DNA of 64,000 nt from Nitrospira sp. (GCA_029194535.1 JARFXR010000001.1:1868721-1932720), one strand, 5' to 3'; numbered from the stretch's first letter, positions 47,023-55,292 are shown. A program made the numbers and translations. Notes: generated from the sequence alone by a model not told the origin.

Positions 47023-47051
47023 ATTCTATGAGGGGGAACCATCGATGTCAA
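47023..47051 (-). promoter_or_regulatory. Sigma70-type promoter of dnaE, giving a leaderless transcript
   Basis: On the minus strand: TTGACA (47051-47046), 17-bp spacer, TAGAAT (47028-47023). Only CCGCGC separates the -10 from the dnaE ATG at 47016, so the expected start of RNA falls on or next to the A of the start codon. Confidence 0.75.
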
Positions 47052-47085: not shown

Positions 47086-48354
47086 CTAATTGCTGACTCG
47101 AAGCCGGATGGATTTGGTGAAGGTCTGATTTGTCGGCAGGGTGGAATCCTGCACCGTGAAATCGTAGACCACGTTGCTGGTGAAGAACGGGGTTCCTGAG
47201 ATGTTTCCGGTGGCCGCATTTAGGACCAGTCCGGCCGGAAGCGGTGGTGATACCGTCCAGGTGAACGGAGCCGTCCCACCCGAGCGCTGCAGCGTCTCAT
47301 TATAGAATCGCCGAACCCGGGCATTATCCAGTGAATTGGTCGTGATGGTCAGTGCGACGCTGACCGTCAGGGAAAACTGCTGTGTATCGGATTGTGACAA
47401 GGCGTCGGTCACTCTGACCGTGAAGGTTGATGTGCCGCCGTCGGTCGGCGTGCCAGAGATGATCCCGGCGGGGTCGAGCGCCAGATTTGCCGGCAGCGAG
47501 CCGACTGTACGGCTCCAGACGAGCGTGCCGGTCCCACCCGCGGCAGCCAAGGTGTGACTATAGGGCGCCCCCACTGTCGCTCCCGGCAGGGGCGAGGTGG
47601 TGGTGATGTTCGGCGGCGTCGACGGGTTGATCAGGATCGAAAAGGATTGCGTGTCGGCTTGTCCCGTCGTGTCCACGACACGAACGGTGAAGGTCGACGT
47701 GCCGACGGCGGTTGGTGTGCCGGAGACGAGGCCTGTCTGGAGATTGAAATCCAGATTTTGCGGGAGCGAACCTGACGTGATACTCCAGAAGAGGGGCGGA
47801 GTTCCGCCGACGGCCTGGATCGCCTTGCTGTAGGGTTGACCGACGTGACCGGCAGGGAGAGAGGTCGTGGTGATGGCCAGTACAGCCGGCGCGGCGTTGA
47901 TCGTCAGCGACAGAGAGATTTGTGTCGACTGCACCGGGTTTGAGGCGTCTTGCAAGGCGAAGGTGTGAGTCGTTGTCCCGACGACTTCCGGTGTGCCGCT
48001 GATCGCACCGGTCGATGGATCGAGGACAAGGCTACGGGGAAGGGGTGGATTCACGGACCATTGATAGGGAGTGATCCCGCCCGCCCCGCCGATGGTGGTC
48101 GCATAGGGTTGATTCACGAGCCCGTCGGGCAGCGAAAGCGAGACGATCGCCAGCGCACCCGGACCTGGTGCGGGATCAGGAGCTTTCGAGACGTCGTTGC
48201 AACCGATGGGTCCTGCCAGGCAAATGACCGACAGCAATGGAGCCCACAAGCCCCTTCCGGTTCGGCTGACGCGTGATGCTTGCGTCTGATTATTCAGATC
48301 ATTCACCTGTACGCTTGATCCAAGCAAATATGAATGCGTTGCCTGTCGCAACAA
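47086..48354 (-). CDS. Putative Ig-repeat lipoprotein A (CNDVS family)
   Basis: A 422-aa protein, first (by position) of five tandem paralogues. The signal region ends LLSVICLAGPIGC, with the shared mature start CNDVSKAPDPAPGPGALAIV. The lipobox here (PIGC) is weaker than in its relatives. Four Ig-like repeats of the putative Ig (He_PIG) type follow, each with LPxGxxxxPYxxxL, GGxxPxxWS, LPxxLxLxxxTGxISGTP and TFTVRVxD. The start is unclear: the frame opens at TTG 48354, GTG 48306 is possible, and neither has a ribosome site. Likely surface or periplasmic, perhaps an adhesin or structural protein; no known partner. Confidence 0.82.
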   Translation of the reverse strand: MLRQATHSYLLGSSVQVNDLNNQTQASRVSRTGRGLWAPLLSVICLAGPIGCNDVSKAPDPAPGPGALAIVSLSLPDGLVNQPYATTIGGAGGITPYQWSVNPPLPRSLVLDPSTGAISGTPEVVGTTTHTFALQDASNPVQSTQISLSLTINAAPAVLAITTTSLPAGHVGQPYSKAIQAVGGTPPLFWSITSGSLPQNLDFNLQTGLVSGTPTAVGTSTFTVRVVDTTGQADTQSFSILINPSTPPNITTTSPLPGATVGAPYSHTLAAAGGTGTLVWSRTVGSLPANLALDPAGIISGTPTDGGTSTFTVRVTDALSQSDTQQFSLTVSVALTITTNSLDNARVRRFYNETLQRSGGTAPFTWTVSPPLPAGLVLNAATGNISGTPFFTSNVVYDFTVQDSTLPTNQTFTKSIRLRVSN

Positions 48355-48395
48355 TTCTGTGGCGGCAGATATGAAGCCATACGTTCCGGAACTGC

Positions 48396-48442
48396 ATCTT
48401 ACGGGATGGGCTGTGAGGAGGTCTCCCCTACAAAGGTATAGG
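48396..48442 (-). promoter_or_regulatory. Promoter of Ig lipoprotein A with adjacent dyad
   Basis: On the minus strand a -10 TAAGAT (48401-48396) is preceded after 18 bases by GAGACC (48425-48420). Directly upstream lies an imperfect dyad, on the plus strand CCCCTACAAAGGTATAGG (48425-48442). The same arrangement stands before lipoprotein E, which makes an activator site likely. Confidence 0.45.
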
Positions 48443-48486
48443 AAAGAGGAGAGTGAACCGGTGTCGCGAGTTCTAACGAGGCGGAG

Positions 48487-49158
48487 CTATCGACTGGTCA
48501 GCGAAGGGGCGATCGTCAAGCCCAGCGTCGCGGTGGCTGACTTGTTGAATGGTGAACTGGAATCGCGGACGGTGAAGGTGACGCTCGTCGTCCCGCTGGT
48601 CAATGGCGTACCGAGGATGGCATGCGAGGCTGGGTCGAAGGTCAGACCGAACGGCATGGCGACCGGCTGCCAGATCAAAGGGGGTAATCCTCCCGCTGCG
48701 GCTAACGTGGTGACCGGGTATGGCACGTTCACACGCCCGTCGGGAAGCGACGTGCTGGTAATCATGAGGGGTGGTTCGATCGTGATGGACAGAGACTTCT
48801 GCACGGTGTCCGCCGGCTTGGAAGAATCTTGGAGCGTGAACGTGTGGGTGGTCGTCGCGGCCGTGGTGGGAGTTCCGCTGATCGATCCGCTTGTCTGGTT
48901 GAATGTGAGATTGGGGGGAAGAGCCGGAGATACGGACCACGTATAGGGCGTGATTCCTCCCGCTCCTCCCAACGTGGTCACGTAAGGCTCACTCGCGACT
49001 CCATCGGGAAGAAACGTCGTGACGATGGCGAGTTCTCCCGGTCCCGGATCGGGTGGGGGAGCTTTGGATACGTCGTTGCATGCGAGAAGGCCGCACAGGG
49101 CTGCGGCGGCCATGAGCGCGGTACCCAACCCAGACGTCATGAACGTGCGATCGTGCAT
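48487..49158 (-). CDS. Putative Ig-repeat lipoprotein B (CNDVS family, shortest member)
   Basis: A 223-aa protein. The lipoprotein signal is good (ALMAAAALCGLLAC, lipobox LLAC) and the mature N-terminus is CNDVSKAPPPDPGPGELAIV. Two Ig-like repeats follow: LPDGVASEPYVTTLGGAGGI and LPDGRVNVPYPVTTLAAAGG. The protein ends SLTSR, as does neighbour C. The frame starts at ATG 49158; ATG 49140 is equally possible and neither has a clear ribosome site. It may be a shortened copy of A or C, because its repeat 1 matches repeat 1 of A closely. Confidence 0.8.
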   Translation of the reverse strand: MHDRTFMTSGLGTALMAAAALCGLLACNDVSKAPPPDPGPGELAIVTTFLPDGVASEPYVTTLGGAGGITPYTWSVSPALPPNLTFNQTSGSISGTPTTAATTTHTFTLQDSSKPADTVQKSLSITIEPPLMITSTSLPDGRVNVPYPVTTLAAAGGLPPLIWQPVAMPFGLTFDPASHAILGTPLTSGTTSVTFTVRDSSSPFNKSATATLGLTIAPSLTSR

Positions 49159-49240
49159 GGTAGGTTATGCGCATCGACCGCTCCTGATTGCAAGAGGTCG
49201 ACGCGCATAAATTTGAGCATCGGGTCAGCACATCTCCTTC

Positions 49241-50467
49241 CTACCTCGACGTCAACGAATCCAGGATCGTTAGGCCCAACGATTTGGATGTCGTTCGTCC
49301 GGCGGCATCGTGCACCGTGAATACGTGGCTTCCGTTGAGTTCCGGAACCAATGGTGCCCCGCTGATGGTTCCCGTATTCGGATCAAACAGCAATCCAGTC
49401 GGGAGGGCCGGGATCACGGTGGCGGACCAGGCATAGGGTGGTGTGCCGCCGGATGCACTCAGACTCACCGGTCCGTATGCCTCGCCAACCCGCCCCGTGG
49501 GCAGCGCGGTTGTGTCGATGATCAGTTCAGCCACTGTGATGGTCAGTGATTGAGTCACTGCAGCCCCGTTGTTGTCCTGCAGGCGATAGGTGTTGGTGAA
49601 TGCTCCTTTGGCCGTCGGGGTACCGGTGATCACACCGCCCGAACTGAGCGCTAGACCGGGAGCCGGTGGCGCTCCTCCGACGATGGACCAAGTATAGGGC
49701 GGGCCGCCTCCAGAAGCATTCAGCGAGACCGGTCCATAGCCTTGGTTGACCGTGGCATCCGGGAGCGAACTTGTGTCGATCTTCAACGCCACGTTCACGG
49801 TAATCGTGAGGGTACCGGACGCGGTCTGGTTGAAAGGAATCGCGGAGTCGTTCACTGTGAACGTCACAGTTGCCGTTCCGCTGCTGGTGGGGACTCCACT
49901 GATGGAGTGACTGGCCGCGTCGAACGTCAAGCCGAAGGGCATGCCCACCGGCTGCCAGATCAAGGGGGGGACTCCACCGGTTGCGGTGAGCGTGGTCTGC
50001 GGATAAGGCGCGTTCACGGTTCCCGCCGGCAACGACAGGGTGGTGATTGCCGGCGGCACCAGGGCTTGATTGATCTTCAATGAAAGAGTCTTTTGCGTCG
50101 TTTGCGGCGGCTTTGAGGAGTCTTGCAGCGTAAAGGTGTGGGACGTTGTGCCCTGTGTGGCCGGCATGCCGCTGATGGCGCCGCTCGCTCCGTTGAACGA
50201 GAGGTTGGCCGGCAACGGGGGGGTCACGGCCCAGGAATAGGGAGTGATGCCCCCTGATCCGCCTATGGTAATGGAATAGGGTTGTCTGACGGTGGCGTCG
50301 GGAAGCGAAGCGGTGACAACGGTCAGGGCTCCGGGACCTGGATCCGGCGCGGGAGCCTCCGACACGTCGTTGCAGCCGGCCACAAACGACAGGCAGAACA
50401 GGAGTCCTAGTAACAATCCGTCTAACAGTGGCCAAGGTCGATATGTGGAATCTGCGAGCAAAGTCAT
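49241..50467 (-). CDS. Putative Ig-repeat lipoprotein C (CNDVS family)
   Basis: A 408-aa protein. AAGGAG 7 bases upstream fixes the start at ATG 50467. Signal peptide LLLGLLFCLSFVAGC with a clear lipobox (VAGC), mature start CNDVSEAPAPDPGPGALTVV, then four Ig-like repeats (first LPDATVRQPYSITIGGSGGI, last LPTGRVGEAYGPVSLSASGG). It ends SLGLTILDSLTSR, like B. This is the member with the best translation signals. The second repeat, with the odd phrase IWQPVGMPFGLTFD, is shared almost word for word with B and D, a sign of shuffling among the copies. Confidence 0.85.
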   Translation of the reverse strand: MTLLADSTYRPWPLLDGLLLGLLFCLSFVAGCNDVSEAPAPDPGPGALTVVTASLPDATVRQPYSITIGGSGGITPYSWAVTPPLPANLSFNGASGAISGMPATQGTTSHTFTLQDSSKPPQTTQKTLSLKINQALVPPAITTLSLPAGTVNAPYPQTTLTATGGVPPLIWQPVGMPFGLTFDAASHSISGVPTSSGTATVTFTVNDSAIPFNQTASGTLTITVNVALKIDTSSLPDATVNQGYGPVSLNASGGGPPYTWSIVGGAPPAPGLALSSGGVITGTPTAKGAFTNTYRLQDNNGAAVTQSLTITVAELIIDTTALPTGRVGEAYGPVSLSASGGTPPYAWSATVIPALPTGLLFDPNTGTISGAPLVPELNGSHVFTVHDAAGRTTSKSLGLTILDSLTSR

Positions 50468-50580
50468 GCGAACTCCTTCTTGAATCAAACTTCATTTGAT
50501 AGCCTGGTTGGGGTCTCTAGATCAAGGGAGAAGTTCAGTCGGCGATCTCGTGCGAGGCTAGAGGCTGCAAATAAGCCTCT

Positions 50581-52647
50581 TCAGCAGCCGCAACTGATGA
50601 TCGTAAGGGTCAGCGCCTTGCTTACTGATTGATTGACCGAATCTCTGACCGTAAGCAGAAATTTTTGAGGTGGAACCACAGCAGTACCTTGCTCGGGAAT
50701 ACCTGCGATCACGCCAGCGACCGTATCCAGGGAGAGTCCTGCCGGTAGCGTAGGACTTACTGACCAGGTGTAAGGGGGAGTCCCTCCAGAAGCAGATAGC
50801 GTCGTCGAGTAAATCTGAGTTTCGAAGCCGACGGCAAGAGGCTTACCGACATCATCAGATTCGATTGTCAGTTCAGTACTGACCTTCAGCGTGAGTGCTT
50901 TTGTGGCGGTCACTCCGTTTCTGTCCTGCACACGGTAGGTTCGGCCAAACGTTCCTGTCGTAGTCGGTTGGCCGCTGATCAGGCCATCTGAGCTCAGAGA
51001 CAAGCCAGGCGCGGGTGTCGATCCACCGTTTGCGATAGACCAGGCATACGTTGACGGTCCAGTTCCACCGGATGCGACCAGAGCGGTGTTATATGGGCGA
51101 CTGGTTGTGCCGACCGGCAGCGGCGAAGTAGAGTCATCGCTATTGATCGTGAGCGCCGAGTTGACCGTCATGGCGTACATCTTGCTGCCGGTCTGGTTAA
51201 AGGGGGTGGTGGAATCATGAACGGTGAATGTGACGTTCGCCGTGCCCGCGCTGGTCGGAGTTCCTGTGATCATCGCTGTTGCCGGGTCGAACGATAGGCC
51301 GAACGGCATACCCACCGGCTGGAACGACAAGGGTGGCGCACCTCCGCTGGCCTGAAGGGTCGTGCTTGGATAGGGCGCATTGACGGTGCCGACTGGAAGC
51401 GAGGTAGGCGCGATGATGCTCGGCGGCGGCGGCGGAATCACGGCTATCGTGAATTGTTTCGTGGCGACGAACAGCGCATCCGTAACCTGGACCGTAAATG
51501 TAAAATTGCCTGTCGGCGTCGGATTACCGGAAATCCTGCCGGTCGATGGGTTCATGCTTAGGTTTGGGATCGTGCCACCTTGAAAACTCCATGTTCTGGA
51601 GCCTGAACCACCAGTAGCCTGAACGGTCTGATCGTAGGGCTGACTCAACACACCGTTGCTGAGGGATCCGGTCGTAATACTGAGTGGAGCTGGTTGGTTA
51701 ATAGTAATGGTGAGTGGCTTTTGTGATGATTGCTGCGGAGCACCGCTATCTTGCACTCGAAAGGCTGGGGTGAATGTTCCGAAGGTCGTGGGTGTTCCCG
51801 CAATTGCACCGTTGCTCTGGTTCAGTTGAAGTCCAGGAGGCAGTGTGCCGCTCACAACCGTCCATGTCAGCGGTGAGGTCCCTCCTGTCGCCACGACTGT
51901 ATCGCTATAGGTCTGAAGCTGAGTTCCGGATCGCAGAGAATCGGTTGTGATGGTCAAGGGCAATGGTGCTGGAGTGATGGTCAACGTATATTGTCTTGAT
52001 CCATCTTGAGGCGTCGGCGAGAAGGAGTCGGTGACGGTGAAGGTGTGGGATTGATTGCTGGGAGCCGAGGGGGTACCGCTGATCGTACCTGTCGCGGTGT
52101 TAAAGACAAGTCCGCTCGGCAGCGCAGGAGTCACAGTCCAGCCGGTATAGGGGGGAGTTCCTCCCGAAGCTGTCAACTGAGTCTGGGGATAAGGCCGACC
52201 GACAATACCGTTGGCGAGCGTTGCAGGCGCGGAGATCGTCGGCTGCGGGACGGCATTAATCGAAATGGTGAGAGTCTGTTGTGCAACTTGCGGGGTCGGC
52301 GTCGAAGAATCCACCACTTGGAATTTCGATGTGACAGTTTGTATGGTCGTCGGTGTGCCACTGATGACACCGGTGGAACTCAGACTAAGGCCGTTGGGCA
52401 ACGAAGGAGATCCACCGACGAGACTCCAAGAATAGGCGGGGTTCCCGCCTGAGGCGGCCAGGGTCGTACTGTAACGGATGCCGATGCTGCCGCTCGGCAG
52501 CGGGGAGCCCGACTGAATCGCGAGGGCCGTCGGCCCCGGTGGAGGTTCGGGCGCCGTGGAGACATCGTTGCAGGCGGTCACTATCGAGAGATGGAAAACC
52601 AACAGGACCAGCGAAGGGAGATGTGATTCAGTTCGTTCATGAGACAT
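50581..52647 (-). CDS. Putative Ig-repeat lipoprotein D (CNDVS family, seven repeats)
   Basis: A 688-aa protein from ATG 52647, where a signal peptide begins (LPSLVLLVFHLSIVTAC, lipobox VTAC); the frame is open 45 codons further but these look non-coding. Mature start CNDVSTAPEPPPGPTALAIQ, then seven Ig-like repeats of 85-100 residues, and an unusual C-terminus ending LTIISCGC with two cysteines. Repeats 1 and 2 are close to those of E, and a 225-bp part of repeats 2-3 is nearly identical at the DNA level. A sequence of 17-bp direct repeats and a perfect palindrome lie upstream. Confidence 0.85.
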   Translation of the reverse strand: MSHERTESHLPSLVLLVFHLSIVTACNDVSTAPEPPPGPTALAIQSGSPLPSGSIGIRYSTTLAASGGNPAYSWSLVGGSPSLPNGLSLSSTGVISGTPTTIQTVTSKFQVVDSSTPTPQVAQQTLTISINAVPQPTISAPATLANGIVGRPYPQTQLTASGGTPPYTGWTVTPALPSGLVFNTATGTISGTPSAPSNQSHTFTVTDSFSPTPQDGSRQYTLTITPAPLPLTITTDSLRSGTQLQTYSDTVVATGGTSPLTWTVVSGTLPPGLQLNQSNGAIAGTPTTFGTFTPAFRVQDSGAPQQSSQKPLTITINQPAPLSITTGSLSNGVLSQPYDQTVQATGGSGSRTWSFQGGTIPNLSMNPSTGRISGNPTPTGNFTFTVQVTDALFVATKQFTIAVIPPPPPSIIAPTSLPVGTVNAPYPSTTLQASGGAPPLSFQPVGMPFGLSFDPATAMITGTPTSAGTANVTFTVHDSTTPFNQTGSKMYAMTVNSALTINSDDSTSPLPVGTTSRPYNTALVASGGTGPSTYAWSIANGGSTPAPGLSLSSDGLISGQPTTTGTFGRTYRVQDRNGVTATKALTLKVSTELTIESDDVGKPLAVGFETQIYSTTLSASGGTPPYTWSVSPTLPAGLSLDTVAGVIAGIPEQGTAVVPPQKFLLTVRDSVNQSVSKALTLTIISCGC
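51947..52171. repeat. Near-identical tract shared with lipoprotein E (copy 1)
   Basis: This 225-bp piece of gene D matches 54496-54720 in gene E with about seven differences by eye and no gaps, far closer than the flanking sequence. It covers the end of Ig repeat 2 and the start of repeat 3. It suggests recent gene conversion or duplication. Confidence 0.8.
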
Positions 52648-52740
52648 GTGATGGGCTCGTACCCCCACAAACCCAGCCTCGATAATCAGCGAGAAGATGC
52701 AGAACGGTGGTGACGGTACTTGAGGGGGGTCCCTATGGCA

Positions 52741-52758
52741 CCTAGGGAGATCCCTAGG
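52741..52758. promoter_or_regulatory. Perfect palindrome upstream of lipoprotein D
   Basis: CCTAGGGAGATCCCTAGG: two perfect 7-bp arms (52741-52747 and 52752-52758) with spacer AGAT. It lies about 94 bp before the likely start codon, next to the CTTGAGGGG/CCCTA motif (52719-52735). Probably an operator for a dimeric regulator. Confidence 0.5.
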
Positions 52759-52778
52759 TCGAATTGTTGTAAGGAACC

Positions 52779-52811
52779 GCACGAAGCACTATAGCGCACG
52801 AAGCACTATAG
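52779..52811. repeat. Tandem 16-bp direct repeat
   Basis: GCACGAAGCACTATAG occurs at 52779-52794 and again, after a single C, at 52796-52811; a partial GACTATAGG follows at 52812-52820. It lies in the gap between lipoproteins D and E. It could be a binding site or simply replication slippage. Confidence 0.7.
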
Positions 52812-52856
52812 GACTATAGGATGGACCGGTCGGCGCCCCACTTGAATAATGCTCGG

Positions 52857-55199
52857 TCAAGGATTGATCGTAATGGATAGAGCCTGTGTATCAGATTGTG
52901 GAACCGTGTCGGTGACTTCTACTGTGAAGCTGAATGGGCTGCCCACTGAATCGGTAGGCGTGCCAAAGATCACCCCCGTTGCCTGTTCTATGTCGAGCCC
53001 TGGTGGTAGCGCTCCCGCGCTTATTTTCCAAGTAAGATTTCCGATCCCGCCAACAGCTTGAACCTGCTGATTGTTGTATGCCTGACCAACCTTTCCGTCC
53101 TCAAGCGAAGTGGTCGTGATATTCGGCGGGGCCGGAAGATCAACTGTTATGGAAAGAGGTTGATCATCAAATTGATTCAACGTGTCGGTGGCTCGTACCG
53201 TGAAATTGGAAGAGCCTGCAAATGATGGTGTGCCGGAGATCAGACCAGTTGTGGGGTTGATTGGGTTCAAACCCGTGGGTAGAGAGCCAGCACTGATGCT
53301 CCACGTGAGGGCGCCGGTTCCCCCACTTGCCTGCACAGTTTGATTGTAGGCACTGCCAACCGTTCCATTCGGAAGCACCGTGGTCGTGATATTCGGCGGG
53401 GCCGGGAGATTGATCACAATTGATAGAGGTTGGTCATCAAACTGATTCAACGTGTCCGTCGCTCTCGCAGTAAAATTGAATGTTCCTGGGGCCGAAGGGG
53501 TACCAGAAATCACACCCGTCGTCTCGTTGATGGGATTCAGTCCGGTCGGGAGTGAACCAGACGGTATGCTCCACGTCAATGATCCCGTCCCTCCGCTGGC
53601 TTGGAGGGTTCGGCTATAGGGTTTGGTAACCGTGCCATTTGGCAACAGCGAATTGGAAGTGGTCGTGATATTCGGCGGCGCCGGAAGATTGACCGTCAGT
53701 GATAACGTCCTTGTTGCCGTCAGTACAGGATTTGTTGAATCTCTGACTGTGAAGACATGTTGAGTCGTGCCCTGACTTCCATTTAGGGGCGTGCCGGTGA
53801 TGGTATGCGTACCGGCGTTCCAACTGAGACCGTTCGGCAGGGCAGGCTGAACCGCAGGGTCCCAGGTCAACGGCGCCGTCCCTCCGGAGGCCTGCAGCTG
53901 GGTTGCCGGATAGGCCTGAGTGACAGTGCCGTTCGGGAGCGACGATGTGGTGATTTGCGGAGGAGCCGGTGGGGTGATCGTAATGGATAGCGGTTGAGAA
54001 TCAGACTGCGGTATAGCATCCGTGACCTGCACTGTGAAACTAAAGGTGCCTGTTTGCGTCGCCGTGCCGGAAATATTTCCCGTGGCTGCATTGAGACCGA
54101 GGCCAGGAGGGAGAGAGCCTGAAATGACTCCCCATGTTCGAGGTGAGACCCCTCCGGTAACTTGTAAGGTCTGATTGTACGTACTGTTGAATGACCCGTT
54201 GGGAAGCGACGTCGTGGTGATACTCGGTGGCCCGGGCAGGACTACGGTAATGGAGAATGGCTTTTGAGTTGATTGCTGAGGCGACCCAACATCCTGCACC
54301 CGGATGGTTGGAGTAAAGGTTCCCGGGGTGGTTGGGGTTCCGGAGATGGTGCCTGTGTTCTGGTTCAATTGAAGGCCAGGCGGCAGATTTCCACTTACAA
54401 CACTCCATGACAACGGAGGCGTACCGCCTGTTGCCGCTAGTTGTACAGGAAGATACGCTACTGTTACGGTGCCGTTCGGAAGCGGCGAGTTTGTCGTGAT
54501 AGTCAACGGCAACGGTGCTGGAGTGATGGTCAACGTATATTGTCTTGATCCATCTTGAGGCGTCGGCGAGAAGGAGTCGGTGACGGTGAAGGTGTGGGAT
54601 TGATTGCTGGGAGCCAAGGGGGTACCGCTGATCGTTCCTGTCGTGGTGTTAAAGACAAGTCCGCTCGGCAGCGCAGGAGTCACCGTCCAGCCGGTATAGG
54701 GGGGAGTTCCTCCCGAAGCGGTTAATTGAGTGAGAGGATACGCTTGCCCGACGATACCGTTGGGGAGAACTGCGGGTGCGGTGATCGTTGGTTGTGGAAC
54801 TGCATTAATCGAAATCGTGAGAGCTTTTTGTGCAACTTGCTGGGTCGGTTTTGAAGAATCCACCACCTGGAATCTCGGTGTGACGGTTTGAATGGTCGTC
54901 GGTGTGCCGCTGATGACGCCATTGGAGTTCAGACTGAGGCCGTTGGGCAGCGAAGGAGAACCACTCGCGAGACTCCATGAATAGGAAGGATTCCCCCCTG
55001 AGGCGGCCAACGTCGTACTATAGCGGATACCAATGCTGCCACTGGGGAGCGGCGAACTGGAGACAATTTCCAATGCGGCTGGGCCAGGAGGTGGCGCCGG
55101 TGCCGTCGACACGTCATTGCAACCGTTCAAACTGAAGATGAGAGCGAGGAATACAAGAATGATCCACCGAACATTCGAGATTGCTTGGAATTCTGACAT
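52857..55199 (-). CDS. Putative Ig-repeat lipoprotein E (CNDVS family, eight repeats)
   Basis: A 780-aa protein, the largest member. I place the start at ATG 55199 (GAGGACG about 10 bases upstream); the frame is open 16 codons further. Signal WIILVFLALIFSLNGC with lipobox LNGC, mature start CNDVSTAPAPPPGPAALEIV, then eight Ig-like repeats. Repeats 6-8 are close copies of one another at the DNA level (period about 270-280 bp, for example GTGGTCGTGATATTCGGCGG near 53109, 53388 and 53658). It stops 75 bp before the small-repeat region of D. A promoter with an upstream dyad lies at 55246-55292. Confidence 0.86.
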   Translation of the reverse strand: MSEFQAISNVRWIILVFLALIFSLNGCNDVSTAPAPPPGPAALEIVSSSPLPSGSIGIRYSTTLAASGGNPSYSWSLASGSPSLPNGLSLNSNGVISGTPTTIQTVTPRFQVVDSSKPTQQVAQKALTISINAVPQPTITAPAVLPNGIVGQAYPLTQLTASGGTPPYTGWTVTPALPSGLVFNTTTGTISGTPLAPSNQSHTFTVTDSFSPTPQDGSRQYTLTITPAPLPLTITTNSPLPNGTVTVAYLPVQLAATGGTPPLSWSVVSGNLPPGLQLNQNTGTISGTPTTPGTFTPTIRVQDVGSPQQSTQKPFSITVVLPGPPSITTTSLPNGSFNSTYNQTLQVTGGVSPRTWGVISGSLPPGLGLNAATGNISGTATQTGTFSFTVQVTDAIPQSDSQPLSITITPPAPPQITTSSLPNGTVTQAYPATQLQASGGTAPLTWDPAVQPALPNGLSWNAGTHTITGTPLNGSQGTTQHVFTVRDSTNPVLTATRTLSLTVNLPAPPNITTTSNSLLPNGTVTKPYSRTLQASGGTGSLTWSIPSGSLPTGLNPINETTGVISGTPSAPGTFNFTARATDTLNQFDDQPLSIVINLPAPPNITTTVLPNGTVGSAYNQTVQASGGTGALTWSISAGSLPTGLNPINPTTGLISGTPSFAGSSNFTVRATDTLNQFDDQPLSITVDLPAPPNITTTSLEDGKVGQAYNNQQVQAVGGIGNLTWKISAGALPPGLDIEQATGVIFGTPTDSVGSPFSFTVEVTDTVPQSDTQALSITINP
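53109..53688. repeat. Internal tandem repeats of lipoprotein E
   Basis: Three successive starts of the same junction, GTGGTCGTGATATTCGGCGG, at 53109, 53388 and 53658 mark DNA-level copies of an Ig repeat unit (279 and 270 bp apart). The units are in frame and encode repeats 6-8, so copy number can change without destroying the protein. Confidence 0.75.
54496..54720. repeat. Near-identical tract shared with lipoprotein D (copy 2)
   Basis: Partner of 51947-52171. About seven single-base differences over 225 bp, then the match drops sharply at the 3' side (52172 versus 54721). Confidence 0.8.
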
Positions 55200-55245
55200 C
55201 GAGACCGTCCTCATGAGTGAATGTAAGCTACATGACGTGGACATC

Positions 55246-55292
55246 ATAATACGGAAAGCTTCGTAGGCGGTCTACCCCTACAAATGTAAGGG
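55246..55292 (-). promoter_or_regulatory. Promoter of Ig lipoprotein E with adjacent dyad
   Basis: On the minus strand: TAGACC (55274-55269), 17-bp spacer, TATTAT (55251-55246). Abutting upstream is a dyad, on the plus strand CCCCTACAAATGTAAGGG (55275-55292), arms of seven with spacer AAAT and one mismatch. The layout equals that before lipoprotein A. Confidence 0.55.

Follow-up and report, generated by a model that had tools for sequence, protein, structure and literature searches.

What do five similar lipoprotein genes, lying side by side next to dnaE in a nitrite-oxidising bacterium, might contribute to the cell surface, and how do they vary? We addressed this question in a 64,000-nucleotide (nt) stretch of DNA from Nitrospira sp., hereafter called the window, in which all positions are counted from the first letter. 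The source organism is closely related to Nitrospira japonica; the DnaE proteins of the two share 94.5% identity. Nitrospira dominate nitrite oxidation in the treatment of wastewater and drinking water, and the protein basis of their dense microcolonies is poorly explained; clade-limited modular lipoproteins are defined candidates. The five genes, here named A to E, combine a short N-terminal module with a body of tandem immunoglobulin (Ig)-like repeats. An initial annotation of the locus had suggested that these proteins form surface fibres or adhesins and vary in repeat number by recombination. Our analysis showed that the repeat number is the same in N. japonica, and that across the wider family whole bodies appear to be replaced behind a constant 5′ module.

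Five lipoproteins with a common N-terminal module

Five intact open reading frames (ORFs) were called on the minus strand of the window within 8.2 kb, between positions 47086 and 55247 (Table 1). Each encodes a hydrophobic signal peptide and a lipobox, followed by the mature start CNDVS-[KET]-AP and a Pro/Gly/Ala linker of 12–14 residues, in line with the signal peptide, CNDVS-x-AP start and Pro/Gly-rich linker that the initial annotation had described for five tandem paralogues in about 8 kb. The lipobox Cys is invariant across a 20-row alignment of the module, and all five genes show the hydrophobic signal peptide and lipobox of bacterial lipoproteins. CNDVS sites in the window were found in A–E only, and no further copies of the module were found in the source genome by a module profile search. 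The start codons are probably internal to the called ORFs in C, D and E, and that of A is uncertain. Mature A–E contain 25–29% Ser plus Thr, and charged residues are very scarce.

The residue at position +2 is Asn, not the Asp of inner-membrane retention, and a LolA gene is present in the same genome (C2:915683-916201, E 3.6e-23). Under the sorting rule derived from E. coli, absence of Asp at +2 together with a Lol pathway indicates the outer membrane. We infer that A–E would be outer-membrane lipoproteins exposed at the surface.

The bodies consist of He_PIG (PF05345) repeats, which number 4, 2, 4, 7 and 8 in A, B, C, D and E, respectively (Pfam E values 1e-14 to 1e-81). The same set of numbers had been noted earlier for the Ig-like repeats. 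The proteins score 54.9 to 269.7 bits against a gathering cut-off of 24 bits, and all their repeats belong to this family. No other Pfam family exceeded its own cut-off in the bodies. In the window proteins the last repeat is followed by no more than ~7 residues, and in almost every member of the family by 2. PF05345 is a domain, not a system, and in A–E it is preceded by the CxDVS lipoprotein module. Neither Pfam nor NCBIfam has a model for this module, which agrees with the earlier view that no named family is known to have such an N-terminus. The initial annotation was to be given up if the proteins proved to be a common cadherin-like family of fixed repeat number and known function. Since He_PIG is common and cadherin-like, half of this holds, though not the part on known function.

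Predicted fold and comparison with SraP

AlphaFold was run on mature A with ten sequences. The resulting model contains four beta-sandwich domains, with a mean predicted local distance difference test (pLDDT) score of 91.7 and a predicted template modelling (pTM) score of 0.55. Its best structural matches, found by Foldseek and VIA-align, were tandem cadherin ectodomains and the stem of SraP from Staphylococcus aureus (4m00, 4m02, 4m03). The SraP stem 4m03 matched the model with a Z score of 13.1 and 29% identity over 160 residues, and this match and the pLDDT support a cadherin-like fold for the predicted structure. SraP was also the top Protein Data Bank match by sequence. It is an adhesin whose cadherin-like modules bind calcium and build a rigid stem (PMC4047093). 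SraP, likewise a tandem rod of cadherin-like beta-sandwiches, is the bacterial protein of solved structure nearest to A–E in sequence, and in fold it ranks among the best matches. However, A–E have no lectin tip, and they carry an N-terminal lipid anchor where SraP has a cell-wall anchor.

Conservation of repeat number and recombination between paralogues

Repeat numbers were compared between species. N. japonica NJ1 has five orthologues in the same place and order, with 8-7-4-2-4 repeats in E-D-C-B-A. The window repeats match best the same-numbered repeat of the orthologue (72–94% identity), with the exceptions of D1 and D2. Between A–E and their orthologues, synonymous divergence (dS) is 0.8–1.3, and the ratio of nonsynonymous to synonymous divergence (dN/dS) is 0.09–0.12, compared with 0.03–0.04 for accA and dnaE and 0.10 for the neighbouring coiled-coil gene. 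The ratios reflect purifying selection and, together with the identical repeat series, show that function is maintained. Variation in repeat number was rejected at the species level. A third species (G003) retains only E (8 repeats) and A (4 repeats). In Nitrospira sp. KM1 the locus contains a D-like gene with 7 repeats and an A-like gene with 5, and members with 4 repeats lie elsewhere. The body types are colinear end to end across genera and mostly keep their repeat number, which is 4 for the A type, 7 for the D type, and 9 and 3 for two further types.

Recombination between paralogues, in contrast, was borne out. Repeat 2 of D and E in the window genome shares 91% DNA identity at a dS of 0.21, whereas the dS of this repeat between D and N. 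japonica D is 1.63. Repeats 3–4 of D follow orthology. Repeats 1–2 of D were overwritten by E in the window species through gene conversion. In addition, D5 groups with C2 and D6 with C3, and the D/E subgroup is a mosaic. Of the two subgroups proposed earlier, A, B and C share GITPY in repeat 1, which is not present in D or E, but D and E do not form a simple group. Repeats inside one protein are at most ~78% identical to each other. The leaders of A–E are 46–64% identical to each other, so we claim no recent body swap in the window. No inverted repeats of at least 30 nt were found in the A–E cluster.

The module in front of different bodies in other Nitrospira

A genome search for the lipobox and CNDVS-type module, as proposed in the initial annotation, found it in 17 of 172 family genomes, belonging to three genera (E ≤ 1e-6; weaker matches were not counted). 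At this cut-off there was no match in N. moscoviensis (G091) or in the complete genomes G034 and G064. Another count, 51 of the 172 genomes, includes other He_PIG proteins and was not taken as the family size. The patchy spread of the module favours a niche or accessory trait over a core function in the envelope, for example the control of the wide Nitrospira periplasm.

The module, 38 residues made up of the signal peptide and C[NGS]DVSNAPAP, fronts He_PIG, PF12733 cadherin-like or PKD bodies in Nitrospira. In a KM1 lipoprotein encoded at the same dnaE locus (L035 2218-4719), CNDVSNAPAP stands ahead of eight PF12733 cadherin-like domains; five or seven PF12733 domains, or four or seven PKD domains, follow the module in other Nitrospira. 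In one sister genus, the genes upstream of dnaE with PF12733, PKD, 7-repeat and 9-repeat He_PIG bodies share similar DNA from ~−200 to ~+50 nt of the Cys codon. Identity there is mostly 70–100% per 50-nt bin, with a weaker bin from −150 to −100; it drops to background past ~+50 nt and resumes ~100 nt after the stop codon. The sharpest case is that of G155 and G156, whose 1.1-kb flank is 96% identical (92–100% in most 50-nt bins of the 5′ flank) and whose bodies are of the 7-repeat versus the 9-repeat type. Variation across the wider family thus appears to be whole-body replacement behind a constant 5′ module.

In a further genome (G127), two genes in tandem have similar leaders but differ in their bodies. 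This suggests that unequal leader exchange in which one of the genes is lost would account for the pattern no less well than horizontal swapping. We tentatively propose, with somewhat less than even confidence, a surface-diversification locus on the dnaE side in Nitrospira. In it the ~250 nt of leader, signal, lipobox and linker would serve as a homology block, and whole rod bodies of different beta-sandwich families (He_PIG, PF12733 and PKD) would be exchanged or lost from tandem arrays. Such exchange or loss would give each Nitrospira lineage its own surface coat. The constant module with exchanged bodies is also a clean natural case of surface-protein evolution outside pathogens.

The Vpma locus of Mycoplasma agalactiae and the Vsp locus of M. 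bovis are likewise multigene lipoprotein loci (PMC2268961), and the Nitrospira relatives resemble them in that unrelated bodies follow a conserved 5′ untranslated and signal-peptide region. In the window, however, all bodies are He_PIG, and the single-strand cluster free of inverted repeats of at least 30 nt does not fit site-specific inversion. The Nitrospira exchange is seen between species rather than within a culture, and its bodies are folded beta-sandwich domains.

Proposed role and alternative explanations

We favour the view, at roughly even chances, that A–E are accessory outer-membrane lipoprotein rods for aggregation or matrix contact. Signal peptidase II would cut before the Cys, and the lipid would anchor the protein in the outer membrane. 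The Pro/Gly/Ala linker would let the rod swing freely, and the 2–8 cadherin-like beta-sandwich domains would stack into a tipless rod, roughly 9 to 36 nm long by analogy with cadherins. As there is no tip domain, contacts would probably be made through the rod faces, by analogy with rods of the homophilic or matrix-binding kind. The five rods would make a coat of differing heights that holds cells in microcolonies or biofilm matrix. Lipid-anchored tandem Ig-like rods are supported, and they could plausibly be the surface fibres suggested earlier. An N. japonica-like strain has been described as microcolony-forming (PMC13049253), which would be in keeping with such a role. No relevant literature on Nitrospira Ig-domain adhesins was found.

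Several observations weigh against such a role. No known adhesive domain was found above cut-off in A–E in Pfam. Fibrillar adhesins (PMC8286594) likewise have an anchor and a stalk of repeated Ig-like domains, as A–E do with 2–8 He_PIG domains, but the definition of that class demands an adhesive domain besides the stalk. The single domains of the model are predicted with confidence, but a pTM of 0.55 means that the interdomain angle, and hence the stiffness of the rod, is not fixed by the model. One calcium site of SraP is formed by Asp573, Asp601, Asn602 and Asp645 (PMC4047093). The Asp601–Asn602 pair aligns to the residues before the GG motif of the window repeats, where an acidic residue is present in 0 of 25 repeats; all 25 retain the equivalent of Asp645. 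Since the Asp-Asn pair is replaced in every repeat, stiffening by calcium as in SraP is unlikely, and an SraP-type site in A–E was rejected; A–E share the SraP fold, not the SraP calcium site. A–E may also sit in the periplasm, since the sequence does not reveal whether they are exposed at the surface.

The default orientation of lipoproteins is towards the periplasm, and the rods might point inward from the outer membrane as spacers or rulers that help set the wide Nitrospira periplasm. Cadherin domains are ~4–4.5 nm long, so that 7–9 of them would span ~30–40 nm. The OmpA-type neighbour would suit this explanation, and the order is described as having an extended periplasm (PMC13049253). Yet the wide periplasm is general in the order, and the module is absent, at the above cut-off, from N. 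moscoviensis, the two complete genomes and 155 of 172 family genomes in all. A ruler would also not need unequal lengths, while 2 to 8 repeats occur inside one genome. We consider this explanation quite improbable. Equally improbable to us is that the domains are carbohydrate-binding modules for matrix polysaccharide. Some bacterial cadherin-like domains are reported as polysaccharide binders, and a single domain of the model matched a domain of the Bacteroides putative alpha-galactosidase 4nzj with a Z score of 12.4 and 1.6 Å over 84 residues (Z 12–13 for 4nzj and 4ogz). However, no catalytic domain and no named carbohydrate-binding family was matched in A–E in Pfam or NCBIfam.

The patchy distribution, the E-to-D conversion and the swapping of bodies behind a constant leader in relatives (G155 and G156) would also be expected of fast-varying surface antigens or phage-receptor decoys, in which recombination inside a population would alter the repeat number or the body and so allow escape from grazers or phages. 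This is unlikely for A–E, as repeat order and number are fixed between the window species and N. japonica at a dS near 1 and a dN/dS of ~0.1. The repeats are too diverged for slippage, the leaders are diverged as well, and the five genes lie on one strand with no long inverted repeats. Periscope proteins (PMC8201768) are also rods of repeated domains, whose domain number sets the projection height; A–E differ from them in the repeat number shared by two species and in the diverged repeats within each protein. The accessory rods that we favour thus look like a modular system for surface coat or stickiness rather than a fast length-varying one.

Feature coordinates and neighbouring genes

Table 1. 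Positions of the lipoprotein genes, recombination tracts, neighbouring features and extra dnaE 5′-end copies (window positions unless another locus is named).
Feature	Position	Strand	Description
Gene A	47086..48354	-	CNDVSKAP lipoprotein, 4 He_PIG repeats; Cys codon 48201; start codon uncertain; N. japonica orthologue 86% amino acid identity
Gene B	48487..49158	-	CNDVSKAP lipoprotein, 2 He_PIG repeats; Cys codon 49080; N. japonica orthologue 82.5%
Gene C	49241..50488	-	CNDVSEAP lipoprotein, 4 He_PIG repeats; likely start ATG 50467 after AAGAAGGAG; Cys codon 50374; N. japonica orthologue 86%
Gene D	50581..52782	-	CNDVSTAP lipoprotein, 7 He_PIG repeats; likely start ATG 52647; Cys codon 52572; N. 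japonica orthologue 79%
Gene E	52857..55247	-	CNDVSTAP lipoprotein, 8 He_PIG repeats; likely start ATG 55199; Cys codon 55121; N. japonica orthologue 86%
D tract around repeat 2	51933..52232	-	90% identical to E; recent gene conversion
Probable donor tract in E	54482..54781	-	Matches 51933-52232; D1–D2 group with E repeats of both species
B repeat 2 tract	48616..48762	-	72% identical to C repeat 2 (49901-50047); older B/C paralogy
Promoter-like TTGACA-17-TAGAAT	47023..47051	-	Between A and dnaE; 11/12 consensus matches
Coiled-coil protein, 444 amino acids	55369-56703		Adjoins E; C-terminal stretch matches tails of phasin PhaH and L21/S2/NuoE fusion models
OmpA-domain protein	ends 56700		Start probably ATG 57584; weak ArfA/OmpATb N-domain match
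Extra dnaE 5′-end copies	L071 7496-7613, 10646-10817; L139 5039-5151, 10836-10948; L148 5921-6036; L048 10961-11079		

The coiled-coil and OmpA-domain proteins reported beside the cluster were both found, while for the BON part of the latter there was only the weak match given in Table 1. The coiled-coil gene lies beside dnaE in Nitrospira without the lipoproteins (L067, L075, L076, L102, L103), and its position upstream of dnaE is conserved in many. The cluster thus represents accessory genes inserted into an interval that is otherwise conserved, and a functional link between A–E and the coiled-coil neighbour was judged unlikely.

Terminator-like sites (8 found, 7.9 expected) and promoter-like sites (4 found, 3.2 expected) were not above chance, so no operon structure is claimed for A–E. 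The promoter-like sequence between A and dnaE may be the own promoter of dnaE, as a consensus match among sites whose total number is at chance.

In four Nitrospira, ~116 nt of the dnaE 5′ end (~−41 to +75) is duplicated between the lipoprotein cluster and the true dnaE; no such copies were seen in the window. The extra copies often precede small cassettes resembling toxin-antitoxin genes, plus transposase-like ORFs, and they look like traces of repeated insertion that regenerates the dnaE start.

Separate proteins of 560–680 residues from several Nitrospira (L039 = G000 C2:349936-350232, L040, L041, L042) match repeat 1 at 31–35% identity. Two proteins of L038 (3706-5862 and 16689-19112) have two He_PIG domains each, and the second adds carboxypeptidase-regulatory-like domains. 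Proteins like those of L038 represent a different He_PIG type, which was found in several Nitrospira.

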